DNA from: Deltaproteobacteria bacterium RBG_13_61_14
GTDB taxonomy: Bacteria > RBG-13-61-14
Direction of reading: 5' to 3'
Length of the DNA stretch: 49,131 bases
NCBI GenBank assembly: GCA_001797815.1
Contig: MGQK01000125.1
Coordinates: forward strand, 82,442-131,572
A program made the position numbers and the translations under genes. This document shows positions 21,902-31,099 of the stretch, one piece after another (position 1 is the stretch's first letter; each line of letters begins with the position of its first letter). The notes beneath the pieces were generated by a model. It was not told the DNA's origin, did not search any database, and was given only the letters and a program-made list of their open reading frames with translations.

Positions 21902-22882
21902 TCACAGCGCCTCCGGCCGGGGAAGGTTTTTGGCGATACACTCGTGGATGCGTAGCGCCACCTTCAGCGCCCGCCAGCCGTCCTCGCCGCTGACCGCCGG
22001 CGGCGTGCGCTGGGCCACCGAATCGAGGAACGCCTCGAGCTCGGCCTGGAGGGCGTCCTGGCGGTCGAGAGGGACCTGCTGGATGCGAATCCGGGACATG
22101 GGGTCGGCGCCGTCGCCTTCGCCCAGGGTGAAAACCGCCATCTTCTGGTTGGAGTAGTCAATCGAGATATAGCGCTCCGGCTCGAAGATACGGATCTTGC
22201 GGATGCCCTCGCCCAGCGAGACCCGGCTGGCGGTGAGGTTGGCCACTGCCCCGTTCTCGAACTCCAGACGGGCGTTGGCGATGTCCACCTTGTCCGAGAG
22301 CACCGGGACGCCGAGGGCGGAGACGGATTTGACCGGCGCCTTGATAAAGCTGAGGATAATATCCAGGTCGTGGATCATCAAGTCCAGGATCACGTCCACG
22401 TTGGCCGCCCGTTCCTTGAAAGGTCCCAGCCGGTTGGCCTCGATGAAACCGGGCCGGACGATGGTGTTGCGCAGGGCCAGGATGGCGGGGTTGAAGCGCT
22501 CGAGGTGGCCGACCTGGAAGATGCGGCTCCGGGCCTGGGCCAGGCGGACCAGTTCTTCGGCCTGGGCCTCGGTCTCGGTCACGGGTTTTTCCAGGAGGAT
22601 GTCGAGCCCGGCTTCCAGGCAGGCCTTGGCCACCCCGTAATGCTCGGGCGTGGGCACCACGATGTTGACCGCCTGGACCTGCGCCAGGAGCTCGCGGTAG
22701 TCGGTGAAAGGCTCGGTGTGCAGGCGGCCGGCCAGGGCCGCGGCCCGCTCCGGGACTACGTCCACCACCCCGACCAGCTCGGCCCGGGGCAGCGCCGCGT
22801 ATTTTTCCGCGTGGAAGGTGCCCAGGTAGCCACAGCCGATCACGGCCACCCGCACCCGCGAAGTTGTTGAAGAATCTGCCAT
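21902..22882 (-). CDS. Gfo/Idh/MocA oxidoreductase, candidate UDP-GlcNAc 3-dehydrogenase (GnnA-like)
   Basis: The 326-residue protein starts at the ATG at 22882, 8 bases after GGGAG; GTG 22900 is an alternative. The N-terminal Rossmann domain has VAVIGCGYLGTFHAEKY. The family EKPV motif (ILLEKPVTET) and the GHLERFNPAI segment follow, then the C-terminal alpha/beta substrate domain. In Leptospira and Acidithiobacillus, GnnA oxidises UDP-GlcNAc at C3 and GnnB then aminates it, giving amide-linked lipid A. The location between lpxI and msbA suits that role. No gnnB aminotransferase is in this window, so the assignment is an inference. Confidence 0.8.
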   Translation of the reverse strand: MADSSTTSRVRVAVIGCGYLGTFHAEKYAALPRAELVGVVDVVPERAAALAGRLHTEPFTDYRELLAQVQAVNIVVPTPEHYGVAKACLEAGLDILLEKPVTETEAQAEELVRLAQARSRIFQVGHLERFNPAILALRNTIVRPGFIEANRLGPFKERAANVDVILDLMIHDLDIILSFIKAPVKSVSALGVPVLSDKVDIANARLEFENGAVANLTASRVSLGEGIRKIRIFEPERYISIDYSNQKMAVFTLGEGDGADPMSRIRIQQVPLDRQDALQAELEAFLDSVAQRTPPAVSGEDGWRALKVALRIHECIAKNLPRPEAL

Positions 22883-22902
22883 CTTTCCGGCTCCCGGCAC
22901 CC

Positions 22903-23745
22903 TCAGTGACCCTCGGGGGCGGCCGGGGCTTCCACTCCGACCAGGGTGATGCCCATGACCTCCGCCAGGGCGGTCATCTTCCGGCGCTCCAAAAGCAGGA
23001 CCCGGCCCGCCTCCACCGCCAGCACCCGCGCCCGCGCCGCCTCCAGGTAGCGCAGCGTTTCCATCCCCACCGCGGGCACGTCGAAACGGAAGTCCTGGCC
23101 GGGCTTGGCGGTCTTCACCACCACCGCGCCGGGACCGGCCAGCCGGCCGGCGCGGAGGATGGCCTGGTCCGTGCCCTCGATCGCCTCGACCGCGACCACC
23201 GCCTGGTCCTTGACGATCACGGTCTGGCCGAGGTCGAGGGCGCCGATGCCCTTGGCCATGCCCAGGCCGAAGCGGACGTCCGCCGCTTCCGGGGCGGAAA
23301 GGGGGATGCCGTTGAGCGTGGCCGCCGGTGCCATCCAGTTTTGCAAGTAGCGGGTGGCCGGGTCCACGGTGATGCCGGCGCGCTCCAGGACTTTCACCAC
23401 CGCCTGGAGCAGGGTGTCGTCGCGGCGGTCGGGCAGGCTCTGGAGCAGGGAGAGAGCCATCTCGTCGAGTTGGAGGTTGTTGTACATCCGGGTCTTGTAA
23501 AGCTTGCCCACCATCACCGCCCGGGTGGCGCCTTCTTCCTGGAGGATGCGCAGCAGTTCCTGGAAATGGAGGAAGGGGAACTCGCGCAGCCGCAGCCCGC
23601 GGTCGAGCAATTCGGGATGGGACTCGCCGGCCGGGGCCAGGGCCACGACCTCAAAGCCCTGGTCGAGCATCTCCTGCGCGGCCAGGACCGGGAACCGGCC
23701 CGAGCCGCAGAGCAACGCCACGCGCTCGCCGCTAACGGATGACAC
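22903..23745 (-). CDS. lpxI: UDP-2,3-diacylglucosamine pyrophosphatase LpxI
   Basis: The 280-residue protein starts at a GTG at 23745, overlapping the 3' end of lpxA by 14 bases. LpxI hydrolyses UDP-2,3-diacylglucosamine to lipid X and UMP, replacing LpxH in many alpha- and deltaproteobacteria. The family pattern is clear: an N-terminal VALLCGSGRFPVLAA, then LLRILQEEGATRAVMVGKLYK and the C-terminal domain with GLGMAKGIGALDLGQTVIVK and VVVKTAKPGQDFRFDVPAVG. The length is normal. Confidence 0.93.
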   Translation of the reverse strand: MSSVSGERVALLCGSGRFPVLAAQEMLDQGFEVVALAPAGESHPELLDRGLRLREFPFLHFQELLRILQEEGATRAVMVGKLYKTRMYNNLQLDEMALSLLQSLPDRRDDTLLQAVVKVLERAGITVDPATRYLQNWMAPAATLNGIPLSAPEAADVRFGLGMAKGIGALDLGQTVIVKDQAVVAVEAIEGTDQAILRAGRLAGPGAVVVKTAKPGQDFRFDVPAVGMETLRYLEAARARVLAVEAGRVLLLERRKMTALAEVMGITLVGVEAPAAPEGH

Positions 23746-24523
23746 CCCGCTGACTCGTCCGGATAAATTCCAGGAGGTGGGCCACTTCCGGGTCGGCGCC
23801 GAACTCCTCTTGCGCCTTGACCAGTGCCTCCTCCAGCCGGAGGCCGGAGCGGAAGATGGTCCGGTAGGCCCGGCGCAGGGCGTGGGCGGTCTCCAGGGAC
23901 AGGCCCACCCGCTTGATGCCGACCCGGTTCAGCCCGATAAACCGCGCCCGGTCGCCGGCCACCAGGCTCCAGGGCGGCACGTCCATGGGCGCGCCGGAGA
24001 TGGCGGCCAGCATCGCGCCCCGGCCCACCCGGCAATACTGATGCACCCCGGAAAGCCCGCCGAGCACGGCATGGTCTTCCAGGATCACGTGCCCGGCCAG
24101 CAAGGCCTGGTTGGCCATGAGCACATGGTTGCCGAGCACGCAGTCGTGGGCCACGTGGCAGCCGATCATGATAAAGTTGTCGTTTCCGACCACGGTCTCA
24201 CCCCGACCCGAGACCGTGCCCCGGTGCAGGGTGACATACTCCCGGATGAGGTTGCGGTCTCCCACCCGGAGCCGGGTGGGCTCGCCCCGATAGGACACGT
24301 GCTGGGGCGCCCCGCCCAGGCAGGCGAACGGCCCGATCCGGTTGTCGCGGCCGATCGCGGCGGGTCCTTCCAGGACGACGTGGGCGCCGATGACGGTGCC
24401 GGCGCCGACCTTCACGCCCTCGCCGATCACGGCAAAGGGCCCCACCGCCACCCCGGAGTCCAGCTCGGCCCGGGGGTGGATCACGGCCGTGGGATGGATG
24501 CCCGCGGGTTCAGGGTTGAGCAT
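23732..24523 (-). CDS. lpxA: Acyl-ACP--UDP-N-acetylglucosamine O-acyltransferase LpxA
   Basis: The 263-residue protein starts at the ATG at 24523 and overlaps skp by 14 bases. LpxA makes the first committed step of lipid A synthesis. It shows hexapeptide repeats of a left-handed beta-helix (IHPTAVIHPRAELDSGVAVG onward), GGAPQHVSYRGEPTRL, and GCHVAHDC, in which His-126 corresponds to the catalytic base His-125 of E. coli. The helical C terminus (RRAYRTIFRSGLRLEEAL) is typical. At the hydrocarbon-ruler region the sequence is AMLAAISG, so acyl length cannot be predicted safely. The usual upstream lpxD and fabZ are missing. Confidence 0.95.
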   Translation of the reverse strand: MLNPEPAGIHPTAVIHPRAELDSGVAVGPFAVIGEGVKVGAGTVIGAHVVLEGPAAIGRDNRIGPFACLGGAPQHVSYRGEPTRLRVGDRNLIREYVTLHRGTVSGRGETVVGNDNFIMIGCHVAHDCVLGNHVLMANQALLAGHVILEDHAVLGGLSGVHQYCRVGRGAMLAAISGAPMDVPPWSLVAGDRARFIGLNRVGIKRVGLSLETAHALRRAYRTIFRSGLRLEEALVKAQEEFGADPEVAHLLEFIRTSQRGVIR

Positions 24524-25058
24524 CGAAGTAACGGGTGACCTCGTCGGTGATTTCCAGTTTGGGGTTGTAAAAAATCAGCATCCCGCGCAGGTCGAGGATC
24601 AGACTGAAGTTCTGCTCGGTGGCCATCTTCTCGATCACGTCGGAAAGGCCCTTTTCCAGGGGCGCCAGCGCTTCCTGCTCCCGCTTGCGCGCCTGGTCCT
24701 CGTAATCCTGGCGCTTGCGCTCAAAGGAGCGCATCTTCAACTCCAGGTCGTTCGCCTTTTGCTTCTTGGTGTCTTCGCTCCAGACCGAGGCCTTGTCGGT
24801 GAACTCTTTCTTCAGGCGGTTGATCTCATCCAGCTCCCGCTTCAGCTCTTCGCCCTTGGGCTTGAACTCGGCTTCCAGGGTGCTGAACTTGGCCTTGCCC
24901 ACCTTCGAGTCCTGGGCCACCTTGTCCACGTTCACGATCCCGATCTTGACGCCCGGCGCCGCCTGGGCCCAGGCCAGGCGCTCGGAGCTGAGGGCCGCGC
25001 CCAGCGCCGCGGATAACACCATGCTCAAGAACCAGAGCAGAGTCATTTTTTTCGTCAT
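24510..25058 (-). CDS. skp: OmpH/Skp-family periplasmic chaperone
   Basis: The 182-residue protein starts at the ATG at 25058. It has a signal peptide ending near AWAQA, then the OmpH core: IGIVNVDKVAQDSKVGK, a long charged coiled coil (about 60-140; KRELDEINRLKKEF, RKRQDYEDQARKREQEAL), and a C-terminal strand FSLILDLRGMLIFYNP. Skp trimers hold unfolded outer-membrane proteins in the periplasm. It lies between bamA, 17 bases upstream, and lpxA, which it overlaps. This bamA-skp-lpx order is common in diderms. Confidence 0.92.
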   Translation of the reverse strand: MTKKMTLLWFLSMVLSAALGAALSSERLAWAQAAPGVKIGIVNVDKVAQDSKVGKAKFSTLEAEFKPKGEELKRELDEINRLKKEFTDKASVWSEDTKKQKANDLELKMRSFERKRQDYEDQARKREQEALAPLEKGLSDVIEKMATEQNFSLILDLRGMLIFYNPKLEITDEVTRYFDAQP

Positions 25059-25075
25059 CGCACCCGCCTCCTCGG

Positions 25076-27364
25076 TCAGAAATTGGTCCCGATCGCAAAG
25101 TTGAACACTTCGCTCCGCTCGCCTTCCCGCCGGTCAAGGGGGAATCCCAGCTCGAAGCGGAGCGGTCCCATCGGCGACATCCACCGGATGCCCGCGCCCC
25201 AGTCCTGGCGCAGGTTAGAAAGGTCAATCTCTTCGTTATCGTTAAAGGCGTTCCCGATATCATAAAAGGCCACGAACTTGAGTCCCATCTCCTTGGAGAT
25301 GGGGATCACATAATCAAGGTTAAAGACTAGCTCCTTGTTCCCGCCGATCGGGGTCTCGAACTCCGAATCCTCCACGAACACCGGCCCGACCGAGCCATAC
25401 TCGTAGCCGCGCAAGCTGTGGATGCCGCCCAGGAAGAAGCGTTCGGTGATGAGCAGGTCTTCGCCTCCCTGGTAATCGAGCAGACCCAGAAGCACCCGGC
25501 CCGAGAGATAGGTTCCCCGGGTCTTGGGGATGGGCTGATAATACTGGGCTTCGAGGATGGTCTTGATGAAATCCTGCTCGCCCCCGAACACATTGTATCC
25601 GGCCACCTCCACCCCCGCGGAAAGCAGGGAGCCTTTGGTGGGATCCAGGTAGTTGTCGAGCGCGTTCCGCTCGAGCTGGGTAGTGAGACTCCCGATCAGG
25701 GTATTGGCCGGCTGGCGGCGGTAGATGCTGGAGGACTTGGCGTAATTTTCCAGGTTGCTCTGGACCAGGGAATAGGTCAGGGAGGTGCGGACGTATTCGG
25801 TGTGGGGAATCGGCCGGCCCACGGTGAGGCTGCCGCCCCGGCGGGCGCTGGTGAAGTCGAGGTAGCGCTGCTCGGTGGAGAAGAGGTTGACGGCGAAGCG
25901 CCAATTCGAATCCAGGAAGTAGCGATCATCGAAGCGCACGTAGTAGTTCTGGGTGCGCTGGGAGATCTGGGTCTGCAAGGACAGCGACAGGCCCTGTCCC
26001 AGGAAATTCTGCTGCGAATACTGGGCGGTGAAGAAGAAATCCTCGGTGGTGGAATAACCGGCCCCCGCGGAAAAAGCCCCGGAGGGCCGTTCCTTGATCA
26101 CCACGTCCACGTTGACCCGGTCATCGGCGCTGCCCGGCCGGGGGATGAACTCCACCGAGTTGAAAAATCCCAGCCGCTGCACCCGGGCCTGGCTCCGCCG
26201 CAGCTCTTTGGAAGAATAAAGTTGCGTCTCCGAAATAGTCAATTCCCGCCGGATGACCTTGTCGTGGGTTTTATCGTTCCCGGTCATCTCGATCCGCTCG
26301 AAATAGACTTTTTTGCCCTTGTGGATCATGTAGTTCAGGTTGACTATCGCGTCCTCCGGATGCCGGTCCAACTGGTAATCAATGTCCACCAGGGCGTAGC
26401 CTTCCTCCCCGTAACGGTCGGTCAGATACTGGATGTCCATCTGCAACTGGCTCTGCCGAAAAATCTCGCCCTCCTGGAGCGCGAAATTCTTCTTGGACTC
26501 CGCTTCCGGATCGAGCAGGTCCCCGGTCACCGTGATCGTCCCCACCCGGTACTGGATGCCTTCCTCCAACCCGACCCCGATATAAACCTGGCGCAAATCC
26601 GGGGTGAGCAGACGTTCCGGCGACGCCACCTTCAGGTCCAGGAAACCATGGTCCTTGTAGTAGTAGTCCAGGAAATAGAGCGAGCGGAACATCTCTTCCC
26701 GGTTATAAGGCTTGCGGGTGAACGCCCCGCTCTCTTTCACCCCTTGCATCGCCTGATGCAGCTTCCGCTCCGAGATCTTCTCGTTGCCAAAAATCTCGAT
26801 CTTTTTCACCTGAGGCTTCTTATACTCGTGGAGATGGAAGATCACCCGCACCCGGCCCGGCTCCACTTCCTCCACTTCCGGCACCACCTCGGTCAAAAAC
26901 AGGCCCTTCTTCTGGTATTCTTCCTCGATCCGCGCCTTGGCTTCCTGAACCTTGCCCGGGTCAAAGATGGCATGGGCCTTTAACTCTACCAACTTTTCCA
27001 AGTCGTCCTGCTTGATCTGGGCGTTGCCGGTAAAGCTTACTTCCTGGATCAAGGGCTTTTCCGCGATGATATAGGTCAGGGCCAACCCTCCCGGCACTTC
27101 TTCCTCTTCCACCCGCACGTCGGTGACAAATCCGGAAGCAAAGATCGCCTGGATGTCCTCGCTCACCTGTTCCCGCGATAATTCCTGGCCCACTTTTGAA
27201 CCAATAAAAGACCGAATCGTTTCCTCCTCGATCCCCCGGGTCCCCTCCACCTCAATCCGCTGGATCACCTGCCCGGCCGCCCACCCAGGCCATACCGCTC
27301 CCAGGAGCACCGCCAACAGCATCATCCACAGGCCATACCCGCCCGCTTGCCCCTCCGCGCGCAC
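25076..27364 (-). CDS. bamA: Outer-membrane protein assembly factor BamA
   Basis: The 762-residue protein probably starts at GTG 27364, which has GAGGA four bases before it. A TTG at 27391 is in frame but lacks such a site. A signal peptide (MMLLAVLLGAVWPGWAAG) precedes five POTRA domains (about 30-420) and a 16-stranded barrel. The barrel loop 6 motif is LRGYEYGSVGP (the VRGF/Y equivalent), and the C terminus ends with Phe (FAIGTNF), as barrel proteins do. BamA inserts beta-barrel proteins into the outer membrane. It is the first gene of the minus-strand envelope operon. Confidence 0.95.
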   Translation of the reverse strand: MRAEGQAGGYGLWMMLLAVLLGAVWPGWAAGQVIQRIEVEGTRGIEEETIRSFIGSKVGQELSREQVSEDIQAIFASGFVTDVRVEEEEVPGGLALTYIIAEKPLIQEVSFTGNAQIKQDDLEKLVELKAHAIFDPGKVQEAKARIEEEYQKKGLFLTEVVPEVEEVEPGRVRVIFHLHEYKKPQVKKIEIFGNEKISERKLHQAMQGVKESGAFTRKPYNREEMFRSLYFLDYYYKDHGFLDLKVASPERLLTPDLRQVYIGVGLEEGIQYRVGTITVTGDLLDPEAESKKNFALQEGEIFRQSQLQMDIQYLTDRYGEEGYALVDIDYQLDRHPEDAIVNLNYMIHKGKKVYFERIEMTGNDKTHDKVIRRELTISETQLYSSKELRRSQARVQRLGFFNSVEFIPRPGSADDRVNVDVVIKERPSGAFSAGAGYSTTEDFFFTAQYSQQNFLGQGLSLSLQTQISQRTQNYYVRFDDRYFLDSNWRFAVNLFSTEQRYLDFTSARRGGSLTVGRPIPHTEYVRTSLTYSLVQSNLENYAKSSSIYRRQPANTLIGSLTTQLERNALDNYLDPTKGSLLSAGVEVAGYNVFGGEQDFIKTILEAQYYQPIPKTRGTYLSGRVLLGLLDYQGGEDLLITERFFLGGIHSLRGYEYGSVGPVFVEDSEFETPIGGNKELVFNLDYVIPISKEMGLKFVAFYDIGNAFNDNEEIDLSNLRQDWGAGIRWMSPMGPLRFELGFPLDRREGERSEVFNFAIGTNF

Positions 27365-27403
27365 TGATTCCTCGTTTACTTCCTGATTCAAATTAAAGAC
27401 ATC

Positions 27404-27649: not shown

Positions 27650-27678
27650 TTGACTTGCAGGGTTTCAATTCTTATAAT
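27650..27678 (+). promoter_or_regulatory. Strong sigma70 promoter, near-leaderless, for the SRPBCC gene
   Basis: TTGACT (27650-27655) and TATAAT (27673-27678) are separated by 17 bases. The ATG at 27688 is only 9 bases past the -10 box, so transcription should start at or within a few bases of the start codon. No ribosome-binding site is visible. Confidence 0.7.
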
Positions 27679-27687
27679 CGGAACCGG

Positions 27688-28452
27688 ATGACCCGTCATT
27701 TTCATCGCTGGGCGGCAATTTTTTCTTGCCTCTTGCTGGCCGGCATGGGGGTCTGGCTTTGGCCGAAAAGGGTTCTGGGGCAGGAAAACGAAGACGACAA
27801 ACTCAAGCGAGGCGATATCTTGATCTCTTTTCGGCCGAGCCCCTTTTCGGATCTTTCCGAGGTGACCGGGGTCATCCTTTTCAATGCGCCTTTGGCGATT
27901 GTCTGGAAGGTCCTGACCAATTACGACGATTATGCCCGCTTTTTACCGGATATCAGCCAGAGCAAGGTGGAACGGAAGGAGGGGGCCGTGGTCTGGCAGC
28001 GGGTCGAGGTTCACAACCTCTGGCCGCTTCCGGACTTCCACTATCTCCTCAAGATCACGAATCGGCCCGAGGCCGGCGAGATTGGGTGGCAGATGCTGGA
28101 AGGAAACCTGAAGAACTTGTATGGCCGCTGGAAACTCGAGCCTTTTGCCGCCAACCCGAACCAAACCAAAGCCATGTATACCTTGCTTCAGGACCCCGGC
28201 GGATTTTTTGGGGATTTGACCCAGAATTTTTCCACCCGCTCCCTGGTCCTGGAACGGCTGGATGCCTTTCATGCCGAGATCCAATTGGAGAAAACGCGCC
28301 AGGATGGGCAGCCGGAACGGGTGATCCGTCCTAATTGGCGCAAGGCCATCTTTTGGTGGGAAGAACTGGAACCCCCCCGCTTTCGCGCCGAGAATAAACC
28401 ACCCCCTCCCGAACCGGCCCCCGCCAAACCTAAACCCCCGGCCCTCCCCTGA
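27688..28452 (+). CDS. SRPBCC (START-like) lipid-binding-fold protein, secreted or membrane-anchored
   Basis: The 254-residue protein starts at ATG 27688. The N terminus is a signal peptide or anchor (WAAIFSCLLLAGMGVWLW). The SRPBCC core follows: VTGVILFNAPLAIVWKVLTN, YDDYARFLPDISQSKV and a C-terminal helix VLERLDAFHAEIQLE. This is the polyketide cyclase/coenzyme Q-binding pattern, which forms a hydrophobic ligand pocket. The last 25 residues are Pro/Lys/Ala rich (PPPPEPAPAKPKPPALP) and look like a flexible or wall-spanning tail. The ligand is unknown. Confidence 0.78.
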   Translation: MTRHFHRWAAIFSCLLLAGMGVWLWPKRVLGQENEDDKLKRGDILISFRPSPFSDLSEVTGVILFNAPLAIVWKVLTNYDDYARFLPDISQSKVERKEGAVVWQRVEVHNLWPLPDFHYLLKITNRPEAGEIGWQMLEGNLKNLYGRWKLEPFAANPNQTKAMYTLLQDPGGFFGDLTQNFSTRSLVLERLDAFHAEIQLEKTRQDGQPERVIRPNWRKAIFWWEELEPPRFRAENKPPPPEPAPAKPKPPALP

Positions 28453-28567
28453 ACAAGCTGGACTCTATTTTCAAAATCCCCTCGGGGGCCTTGAACTTAT
28501 CAGGCTCAAAGGCTAAGCTGTTTTCTGGCTCGCATCGGCAAACGACCAGCTCAACAAGGAGGCAGAG

Positions 28568-31099
28568 ATGGGACGGATCAAGGATCGGAAAGAACTGGAG
28601 CAAATTTTAACCGCGCTCTTTGACCGGGTGATCCAGGACCAGGCCATCACCGACCAGTTGGTGGCCGCCAACCTCGTGCTCCGCTTCCGCTACTCCGACC
28701 CCGAAGGCGTGATCACCATTGACCTGACCCGAAAGCCCCCGGTCTATCGCTTCGACGACCAGGGCGAGGCCGACGTGGAGATGATCCAGTCCGCGGACGC
28801 CTCTCACGAGTTCTGGCTCGGCCGCTTAAGCCCGGTGCGGGCCATTGCCACCGGCAAGATCTCCGCCCGGGGCGATGTGGCCAAAGCCCTCAAGCTCCTG
28901 CCCGCGATCAAGCCCGCCTTCGCCCTCTACCCGCAAGTGCTCCGCGACCTGGGCAAGACCCATCTTTTGCCGCAAGAAACCGCGACCCGCCGCAAAGGCT
29001 TCCTCTCCGGCCTGCTCAGTTCCTTCTCCCGCCGCGGCCGCACCTTCGATCTGAGCCAGCTCCCGGAGCAAACCCTGCCGCCGGCGGCCAAGGCTCCGGC
29101 GCCCGCGTCCTCCATTCGAGAAGTAAAGCTCCCGCCGGATGAGAAGCAACTCCGCCAGGAGATGCTCAAGCGCATGATGCTGATCCGGGCCTTTGAAGAA
29201 TCCTTATCCCGCGAGTGGCGATCGGGCAAGATCCCCACCGCGGCCATCCACCTCAGCATCGGCCAGGAGGCTTCCGCGGTCGGCGTCTGCTTCGCGCTCA
29301 AGGACGATGACGTCATCGCCACCACCCACCGCGGCCACGGCCACATGCTGGCCAAGGGCGCCCCGACCGACCGGATGATGGCCGAGATCTACGGCAAGGC
29401 CGAAGGGCTGTGCCAGGGCAAGGGCGGGAGCATGCACGTGACCGATTCGAGCATCGGCGCCATCGGCGCCAACGGCATTGTCGGCGCCTCGCCGCTCATC
29501 GCCGCCGGCGCGGCCCTGGCCTTTGCCCAGCGCAAGGAAAACCGGGTGGCCGTGGCCTTCCTCGGCGACGGGGCCACCAACCAGGGCATGTTCCACGAGG
29601 CGCTCAACCTCGCCTCGGTCTGGAAGCTGCCGGTGCTCTTCGTGGTCGAGAACAACGGCTACGGCGAGTTCACCCCGCAAGCGCAGCACATGGCCATCGG
29701 CCGGATCGCGGACCGGGCCGCGGCTTACGGCATGCCCGGCGAGCAGGTGGACGGCAACGACGCCGACGCGGTCCTGGCCGCGACGCAAAAGGCCCTGGCC
29801 GACGTCCGCTCCGGCAAAGGGCCGGCGCTGCTCGAATGCCTGACCTACCGCTGGCATGGCCACATGGAGGGCGACTCCCAGGCTTACCGCACCCGGGAAG
29901 AGGTGGAGCGCTGGAAAGAGCGCTGCCCGGTCAAGGGGATGGCCGAGCGCTTGATTGCGGAGGGGGTGATCACCGGGCAGGACCGCGAGCGGATGCGGCA
30001 GGAGGCGGAGGACGAGGTGGCCCAGGCCGTGCACTTTGCGGTGGAGGGCGCGGACCCGGACCCGGAGAGCCTACGCCTCGAAGTGTTCGCGCCGGAAGCG
30101 CCGCTGCCCCAGGGCAAAGGCGGCGGCGCGATGAAGAGCATCACCGGCTCGGCTGCGATCAATCTGGCCCTGGCCGAGGAGATGCGGCGCGACCCCTCGG
30201 TCTTTTTGATGGGGGAGGACGTGAGCCTGGGCGGTTACATGGCGGTGAGCAAGGGGTTGGTGGAGGAGTTCGGGCCGGACCGGGTGCGCGACACGCCGAT
30301 CAGCGAGAACGCGATCGTGGGGTCCGCGGTGGGCGCGGCCATGGCCGGGATGCGGCCGGTGGCCGAAATTCTCTTCAGCGACTTTATCACCTGCGCCATG
30401 GACCCCATCGTCAACAACGCGGCCAAGCTCCGCTACATGTCCGGCGGGCAATACAAAATGCCCCTGGTGGTGCGGCTGCCCAGCGGGGCGGGTCTGGGCA
30501 TGGCGGCCCAGCACTCGCAGAGCCTGGAGGCCATGCTCATGGGAATTCCCGGCCTGATCGTGGCCGCGCCCGGCATGGCCCGCGACGCGCGGGCCCTCCT
30601 CAAAACCGCCATCCGCAGCGACAACCCCGTCATCTTTTTCGAGCACAAGCTCTGCTACCTGATGCAGGGCGAGGTGCCCGAGGCCGAGGAATTCCTGCCT
30701 TTCGGCCGGGCCGCGGTCGCGCGGCCGGGGAGCGACGTGACCGTGGTGGGCTTGCTCTACACCGTGCATTTGGCCCTGGAGGCCGCGGAAACTTTGGCGC
30801 GGGAAGGGATCAAGGTGGAGGTGATTGATCTCCGCTGCCTGGCCCCGCTGGACCTCGATACAGTTTTGCAATCGCTGGCCCGGACCGGCCGGCTGGTCAC
30901 GGTGGAGGAAGGCCCGGTCCGGGGAGGCTGGGGGGCGGAGGTGGTGGCGCGCGTGGCCACGGCCGGGCTGGGTCTGCTCCGCTTTGCGCCGGTCCGGCTC
31001 GGCGCTTCGGACAACCCCATTCCTTACAACAAGGCGCTTGAGGGCTTAAGCGTGCCCGACGCGGCCCGGATCGCCGCGGCGATCAGGAAGTTGTTTTAG
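28568..31099 (+). CDS. SCP2 domain fused to 2-oxoacid dehydrogenase E1 alpha and E1 beta
   Basis: The 843-residue protein starts at ATG 28568 behind AAGGAGGCAG. Residues 1-125 are an SCP2-type sterol/lipid-binding domain (LVLRFRYSDPEGVITIDL; GEADVEMIQSADASHEF; GKISARGDVAKALKLLP). A Pro/Ala linker follows. Residues 196-500 are E1 alpha with the thiamine diphosphate motif GDGATNQG...VVENN (333-363). Residues 523-843 are E1 beta (MGEDVSLGGY, PISENAIVGSAVGAAMAG, GWGAEVVARV). E1 decarboxylates a 2-oxoacid and passes the acyl group to lipoyl-E2. No E2 or E3 gene is adjacent. The intact catalytic motifs argue for an active enzyme; the SCP2 fusion is unusual. The 115-bp gap before it shows only a weak CCCC/GGGG hairpin. 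Confidence 0.88.
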   Translation: MGRIKDRKELEQILTALFDRVIQDQAITDQLVAANLVLRFRYSDPEGVITIDLTRKPPVYRFDDQGEADVEMIQSADASHEFWLGRLSPVRAIATGKISARGDVAKALKLLPAIKPAFALYPQVLRDLGKTHLLPQETATRRKGFLSGLLSSFSRRGRTFDLSQLPEQTLPPAAKAPAPASSIREVKLPPDEKQLRQEMLKRMMLIRAFEESLSREWRSGKIPTAAIHLSIGQEASAVGVCFALKDDDVIATTHRGHGHMLAKGAPTDRMMAEIYGKAEGLCQGKGGSMHVTDSSIGAIGANGIVGASPLIAAGAALAFAQRKENRVAVAFLGDGATNQGMFHEALNLASVWKLPVLFVVENNGYGEFTPQAQHMAIGRIADRAAAYGMPGEQVDGNDADAVLAATQKALADVRSGKGPALLECLTYRWHGHMEGDSQAYRTREEVERWKERCPVKGMAERLIAEGVITGQDRERMRQEAEDEVAQAVHFAVEGADPDPESLRLEVFAPEAPLPQGKGGGAMKSITGSAAINLALAEEMRRDPSVFLMGEDVSLGGYMAVSKGLVEEFGPDRVRDTPISENAIVGSAVGAAMAGMRPVAEILFSDFITCAMDPIVNNAAKLRYMSGGQYKMPLVVRLPSGAGLGMAAQHSQSLEAMLMGIPGLIVAAPGMARDARALLKTAIRSDNPVIFFEHKLCYLMQGEVPEAEEFLPFGRAAVARPGSDVTVVGLLYTVHLALEAAETLAREGIKVEVIDLRCLAPLDLDTVLQSLARTGRLVTVEEGPVRGGWGAEVVARVATAGLGLLRFAPVRLGASDNPIPYNKALEGLSVPDAARIAAAIRKLF

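Follow-up and report, generated by a model that had tools for sequence, protein, structure and literature searches.

The window analyzed here, a stretch of 49,131 nucleotides from Deltaproteobacteria bacterium RBG_13_61_14, carries on its forward strand a gene for an 843-residue protein (positions 28568–31099, ATG start, stop codon included), supported by its open reading frame and by full-length homologues. An AAGGAGG ribosome-binding site (28556–28562, forward strand), read straight from the sequence, lies 5 nt upstream of the ATG. The upstream neighbor on the same strand encodes a SRPBCC/START-like lipid-transport protein (Polyketide_cyc, 27655–28452). Just upstream, on the opposite strand (21902–27391), is an apparent outer-membrane/lipid A row that by eye comprises BamA-like, Skp-like, LpxA-like, LpxI-like and oxidoreductase genes.

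Domain architecture and fold of the fusion protein

The preliminary description, made from the DNA letters alone, read this frame as an SCP2 domain, a linker, and the E1 alpha and E1 beta subunits of a 2-oxoacid dehydrogenase; Pfam, fold comparison and homologues all bear this out. The SCP2 domain spans residues 1–130 (28568–28957), and is followed by a variable linker (131–192; 28958–29143), the E1 alpha domain (198–510; 29159–30097), and the E1 beta domain with the catalytic E580 and H649 (522–843; 30131–31096). The domain search that the description had proposed returned SCP2 at 19–110 (31.6 bits, cut-off 21.3), E1_dh at 201–498 (284 bits), Transket_pyr at 524–695 and Transketolase_C at 713–835, each above its Pfam cut-off and the last three in the expected order; neither an FeS nor a flavin domain was detected by Pfam. 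The NCBIfam model NF006667 passed its cut-off on the E1 beta region, and the pyruvate dehydrogenase E1 alpha equivalogs stayed below theirs (TIGR03182, 326 versus 394 bits; TIGR03181, 250 versus 411 bits). Foldseek matched a full-length model (mean pLDDT 86) to E1 beta subunits and transketolases, and mycobacterial KGD/SucA (3zhu, 2yid) was within the list.

Since the SCP2 call was the weak point by sequence (the profile PF02036 matched 16 of 26 fusion members at E ≤ 0.01), residues 1–191 were modeled with 26 homologues, a structure model of this region having also been proposed beforehand. The pLDDT of this model was about 97 across residues 1–130. Within the linker, pLDDT is below 50 at 137–156. 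The best matches of the model were all SCP2 structures, the first being that of human MFE-2 with its ligand bound (1IKT, Foldseek E = 1.3e-7), and VIA gave Z scores of 14.2–14.5 against the MFE-2 domain (108 residues and 1.8 Å at Z = 14.5); alkylsulfatases also appeared among the VIA fold matches. W83, G102, P112, P116, Y121 and L125 are invariant across the family. The predicted SCP2 assignment is thus secure at the level of fold, though weak at that of sequence. A finding that residues 1–125 are not SCP2 had been named as grounds for rejecting the idea; instead, this region scores above the PF02036 cut-off and its model adopts the MFE-2 SCP2 fold.

Alignments to human pyruvate dehydrogenase (PDH) and within the family indicated that the E1 part is CATALYTICALLY complete. 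Conserved throughout the fusion family are the Mg-ThDP ligands D334 and N363, the ThDP-activating glutamate E580, and the active-site histidines H228, H254, H432 and H649, whose individual roles we presume to be those of their counterparts in known E1 enzymes. The thiamine diphosphate motif noted at residues 333–363 in the preliminary description is intact (G333-D334-G335...N363) and invariant across the family. The family-specific residues E367 and E434 are also present in an acetoin-dehydrogenase E1 from Acinetobacter. In a phylogeny, this E1 falls on the sister side of the fusion clade, a weak placement given an SH-aLRT of 84 and long branches; an acetoin-type E1 is likely the nearest known relative of the fusion E1. 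Position 805 is K or R in 30 of 34 members; we take it to correspond to D289, the acidic residue with which human E1 beta binds E2. We considered the loss of this acidic residue as proof of independence from E2 and rejected it, as an E2-linked acetoin dehydrogenase has a lysine there too.

Distribution and origin of the fusion

A single scan for the same architecture across 84,980 species genomes retrieved 32 loci in other genomes with matches covering SCP2 (48–76% identity), three of them cut by contig ends and two with frameshifts. The loci are spread over Desulfobacterota/Myxococcota, Chloroflexota, Schekmanbacteria and Acidobacteria, and include one from a cultured isolate, Desulfoluna spongiiphila AA1 (G411). 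The closest relatives, CP070770 and JAUWWP01, are 71–76% identical. Because the full 1–843 architecture recurs at 32 independent loci, neither chance fusion nor misassembly explains it, and the joining of two loci by an assembly error, raised beforehand as a possible flaw, is refuted.

Mean pairwise identity between members is 47% for SCP2, 59% for E1 and 21% for the linker. In a phylogeny built from 92 E1 sequences, SCP2-bearing E1s form a single clade (SH-aLRT 100) that contains only two members without SCP2. One of these, L121, is truncated at a contig start and hence lacks the SCP2 region. The other, L112 (7830–9950) from Desulfobacterales, retains a linker remnant and the fused E1 alpha/beta but no SCP2; we read this as a secondary loss, which provides a natural deletion control for the domain. 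The fused SCP2 domains likewise form one clade among SCP2s (UFBoot/SH-aLRT 86/88), and the SCP2 and E1 identities across members correlate (r = 0.91). Judged from these phylogenies, the fusion arose once, and since both clades are single and the identities correlate, SCP2 and E1 have traveled together ever since.

Gene context and the missing E2

The preliminary description also held that no E2 or E3 gene lies next to the fusion. This is correct, and for E2 it extends to the entire host genome: a search with PF00198 (2-oxoacid_dh) was negative for the host (95% complete) and for two relatives of the same order, whereas it detected the domain in 10 of 14 control genomes. An E2 hidden elsewhere in the host was thereby rejected. 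The proposed genome-wide check for E3 did return an E3-like gene (L079) elsewhere in the host. Also in the host, at L046 (G000, contig C13), is a second, two-gene E1 alpha/E1 beta pair, partly masked, with no E2 adjoining it or in the genome.

The E2 domain is absent from 9 of the 32 other fusion genomes, including G386, whose chromosome is a single record, and D. spongiiphila (G411); most of the remaining E2-less genomes are MAGs, and in G408 contig breaks may hide an E2. In eight of the nine the fusion is the only full-length E1, the exception being G408 with a second, contig-cut E1. The PF00364 (lipoyl/biotin-type) matches that could be read in E2-less genomes, a residue-level reading that left out two host matches, were biotin carriers (MKM/MKV), carboxylase subunits or GcvH. 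GcvH genes occur in at least two such genomes (G386 and G388), where GcvH could act as a lipoyl carrier for the fusion.

The other 23 of the 32 genomes do encode an E2. We examined the positions of 53 full-length E2 loci in 20 E2-bearing fusion genomes, each with one fusion gene. None of the 53 lay within 6 kb of the fusion, 39 lay within 6 kb of another E1, and in about half of the genomes every full-length E2 found adjoins another E1. This pairing is the strongest evidence against the fusion being part of a classical complex. The absence of any E2 gene from the host and from at least two relatives with good genomes contradicts, for these, the suggestion that the fusion works with a distant E2; elsewhere the E2 positions make it unlikely.

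No universal operon partner of the fusion was found in the loci examined, only neighbors shared within sub-clades (radical SAM/SPASM with TetR, an epimerase, a class-III aminotransferase), so the pathway could not be read from context. In seven loci (L085, L086, L088, L092, L099, L103 and L120) the fusion is preceded, at a distance of about 1 kb, by a radical SAM/SPASM gene, with a TetR regulator gene upstream of the latter in five of them; in L085 and L103, an unnamed protein with no Pfam match lies between. The radical SAM protein received no specific NCBIfam name. Class-III aminotransferase genes directly adjoin the fusion in L104, L114 and L238, an arrangement that resembles the pairing of a ThDP enzyme with an aminotransferase in prodigiosin-type pathways.

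The nearest stand-alone relatives of the fused SCP2 are proteins of about 145 residues. The closest (L193 and L194, about 46% identical) are encoded directly upstream of a split transketolase on the same strand, and another (L197) directly upstream of an E1 alpha/beta-E2-AOR (aldehyde:ferredoxin oxidoreductase) row, also on the same strand; the thiamine enzymes found beside stand-alone SCP2 thus number one E1-E2 operon and two split transketolases. Because the E1 of the L197 row has its closest matches outside the fused clade, this SCP2 type has probably come to be paired with an E1 on two occasions. Elsewhere, stand-alone genes stand in rows with glycyl-radical enzymes, acyl-CoA dehydrogenases/ligases and AORs (L043–L045, L201, L233–L237, L240–L243, L248, L250 and L252); in part of these neighborhoods, enzyme names beyond those tested with Pfam are by-eye readings. 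Neighboring genes that turn up as a fusion in other genomes usually have a joint function. Since the stand-alone kin adjoin such enzymes, the SCP2 of the fusion would by analogy hold or deliver a lipophilic substrate or product. The earlier proposal of a hydrophobic substrate thereby gains indirect support, from the MFE-2-like fold and from the lipid/CoA operons of the stand-alone kin.

As a separate observation, these proteins belong to a distinct SCP2 subfamily with a conserved H-x-F/Y-W motif ("HxFW"), encoded by small stand-alone genes in anaerobes; with fused copies counted, 28 of the 247 genomes from the phylum of Desulfoluna carry it.

A lipid-targeted thiamine enzyme as the favored reading

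Overall, we read the fusion as a thiamine enzyme that is targeted to lipids, needs no E2 and works as a carboligase or lyase of the acyloin type, a reading to which we give a probability of roughly 0.45. Its parts differ in strength: independence from E2 is highly probable and a hydrophobic ligand is probable, while carboligase or lyase chemistry has somewhat less than an even chance overall. ThDP chemistry yields an acyl-carbanion equivalent from a 2-oxoacid, an acyloin or a diketone. We infer lipid binding, delivery to the active site, and the direction and chemistry of the reaction as follows. The fused E1 alpha/beta domains would bind Mg-ThDP and, starting from a 2-oxoacid (pyruvate, for example), an acyloin or a diketone, form the acyl-carbanion (hydroxyalkyl-ThDP). 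SCP2, at the N-terminus on its flexible linker, would hold a long-chain or polycyclic lipophilic partner and bring it to the active site, or remove the product. Without an E2, the acyl unit could pass to a carbonyl acceptor (carboligation, or cleavage in reverse), be released by protonation (decarboxylation), or go to a different redox carrier. Because no lipoyl E2 is available, transfer to the carbonyl of the lipophilic partner, or cleavage from it in reverse, would be most likely, rather than transfer to CoA via E2. We favor carboligase/lyase chemistry because E1-type enzymes perform it without E2 and because an acetoin-type E1 is likely the nearest known relative.

Several known systems share features with the fusion. 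The E1 alpha/beta of PDH and BCKDH, including their fused forms, agrees with it in all three E1 Pfam domains, in the ThDP motif and the catalytic residues, and in fold; the SCP2-E1 fusion differs in its N-terminal SCP2 and in having no E2 adjoining it and, in several hosts, none genome-wide. Acetoin dehydrogenase E1/acetoin:DCPIP oxidoreductase (AcoAB), placed with weak support (84) on the sister side of the tree and sharing E367 and E434 in the Acinetobacter enzyme, is by contrast split over two genes whose operon also holds E2 and E3 (as in L192), and it has no SCP2. In peroxisomal MFE-2 and SCPx, SCP2 is tethered to an enzyme as in the fusion, and the MFE-2 domain 1IKT is the closest fold match, but the SCP2 is C-terminal and the enzymes act in beta-oxidation and are not ThDP enzymes. 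Mycobacterial KGD, whose structures 3zhu and 2yid are in the Foldseek list, likewise combines an E1-type enzyme with an additional N-terminal domain; it is a SucA-type single-chain E1 that carries an E2-like acyltransferase domain, not SCP2. Precedents for the chemistry come from aKADH2 (KbDH-alpha/beta of kibdelomycin and the aldgamycin enzyme), E1-type ThDP enzymes in which an acetyl unit derived from pyruvate is coupled to a ketone, and from Ao:DCPIP oxidoreductase, a carboligase in vitro, both of which act without E2 (PMC12247030). E. coli PDH E1 is also a carboligase without E2 (PMC7696235). Likened here by description, aKADH2 differs from the fusion in its sugar substrates, its location in actinomycete antibiotic clusters, and its lack of SCP2.

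The main rival to carboligase/lyase chemistry is non-oxidative decarboxylation, in which the acyl-carbanion would be protonated and leave as a (fatty) aldehyde, to be oxidized by AOR or reduced by an alcohol dehydrogenase, with SCP2 holding the long-chain 2-oxoacid or aldehyde. This reading requires no E2; stand-alone SCP2 kin adjoin AOR and Fe-alcohol dehydrogenase genes (L045, L236, L252 and L197), and the fold matches include KGD/SucA, a decarboxylase that has an additional domain at its N-terminus. However, neither AOR nor alcohol dehydrogenase genes adjoin the fusion itself in the loci examined, and we consider this reading unlikely. Of the two options in the preliminary description, an enzyme that acts alone as decarboxylase or acyloin-former is, as far as sequence can tell, better supported than one that depends on a distant E2.

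Against the favored carboligase/lyase reading, the fusion has kept H432 and H649, the residues for reductive acylation of lipoate, as would be expected of an E1 serving a lipoyl carrier. An ordinary E1 acting in trans with an E2/E3 encoded elsewhere, its SCP2 merely broadening substrate choice, would account for these intact residues, and 23 of the 32 genomes have an E2. Nevertheless, such an enzyme is improbable given the absence of E2 from the host, the single-chromosome relative and the isolate, and given the E2 positions in the 20 E2-bearing genomes. Least probable of all is a minimal E2-free oxidative decarboxylation, with acylation of another lipoyl carrier (GcvH, LbpA-like) or electrons passed to ferredoxin or quinone: G386 and G388 have GcvH genes and the host has an E3-like gene, yet no GcvH, LbpA or electron-transfer gene was linked to the fusion in the loci examined, and the protein itself has no FeS or flavin domain. 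The SCP2 fold might instead be purely structural, an oligomer contact or stabilizer with no lipid bound. SCP2-like domains make dimer contacts in some enzymes, such as the alkylsulfatases found among the fold matches, and L112 keeps its E1 after losing SCP2. We nonetheless regard a purely structural role as improbable: the best fold match is a ligand-bound MFE-2 domain, the domain is retained under constraint in 32 members, and its stand-alone kin are separate small proteins beside lipid/CoA enzymes.

An E1 is usually regarded as metabolically useless without its E2. Our search of open-access papers turned up no description of an SCP2-E1 fusion. SCP2 and E1 each belong to known families, and each kind of fusion has precedents of its own, SCP2 with other enzymes (MFE-2, SCPx) and E1 alpha with E1 beta; a ThDP enzyme that combines the two and works without E2 seems not to have been described. 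Annotation pipelines will label the fusion "pyruvate dehydrogenase", which is probably wrong because a conserved E1 family of single origin has gained a lipid-binding domain and occurs in E2-less genomes. The fusion lends itself to direct biochemical testing, the cultured D. spongiiphila having a homologue, and it points to an SCP2 subfamily found repeatedly beside hydrophobic-substrate enzymes of anaerobes. More speculatively, and with the odds against it, this may be an undescribed family in anaerobic and environmental bacteria in which SCP2 hands a carbonyl partner, long-chain or polycyclic, to an E2-free E1 that makes or cleaves lipid acyloins, as part of a wider use of "HxFW" SCP2 as a substrate handler for glycyl-radical enzymes, AOR, transketolase and acyl-CoA dehydrogenases. 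If true, it would represent an uncharacterized branch of bacterial lipid metabolism and an unrecognized wider role of the "HxFW" SCP2 subfamily.
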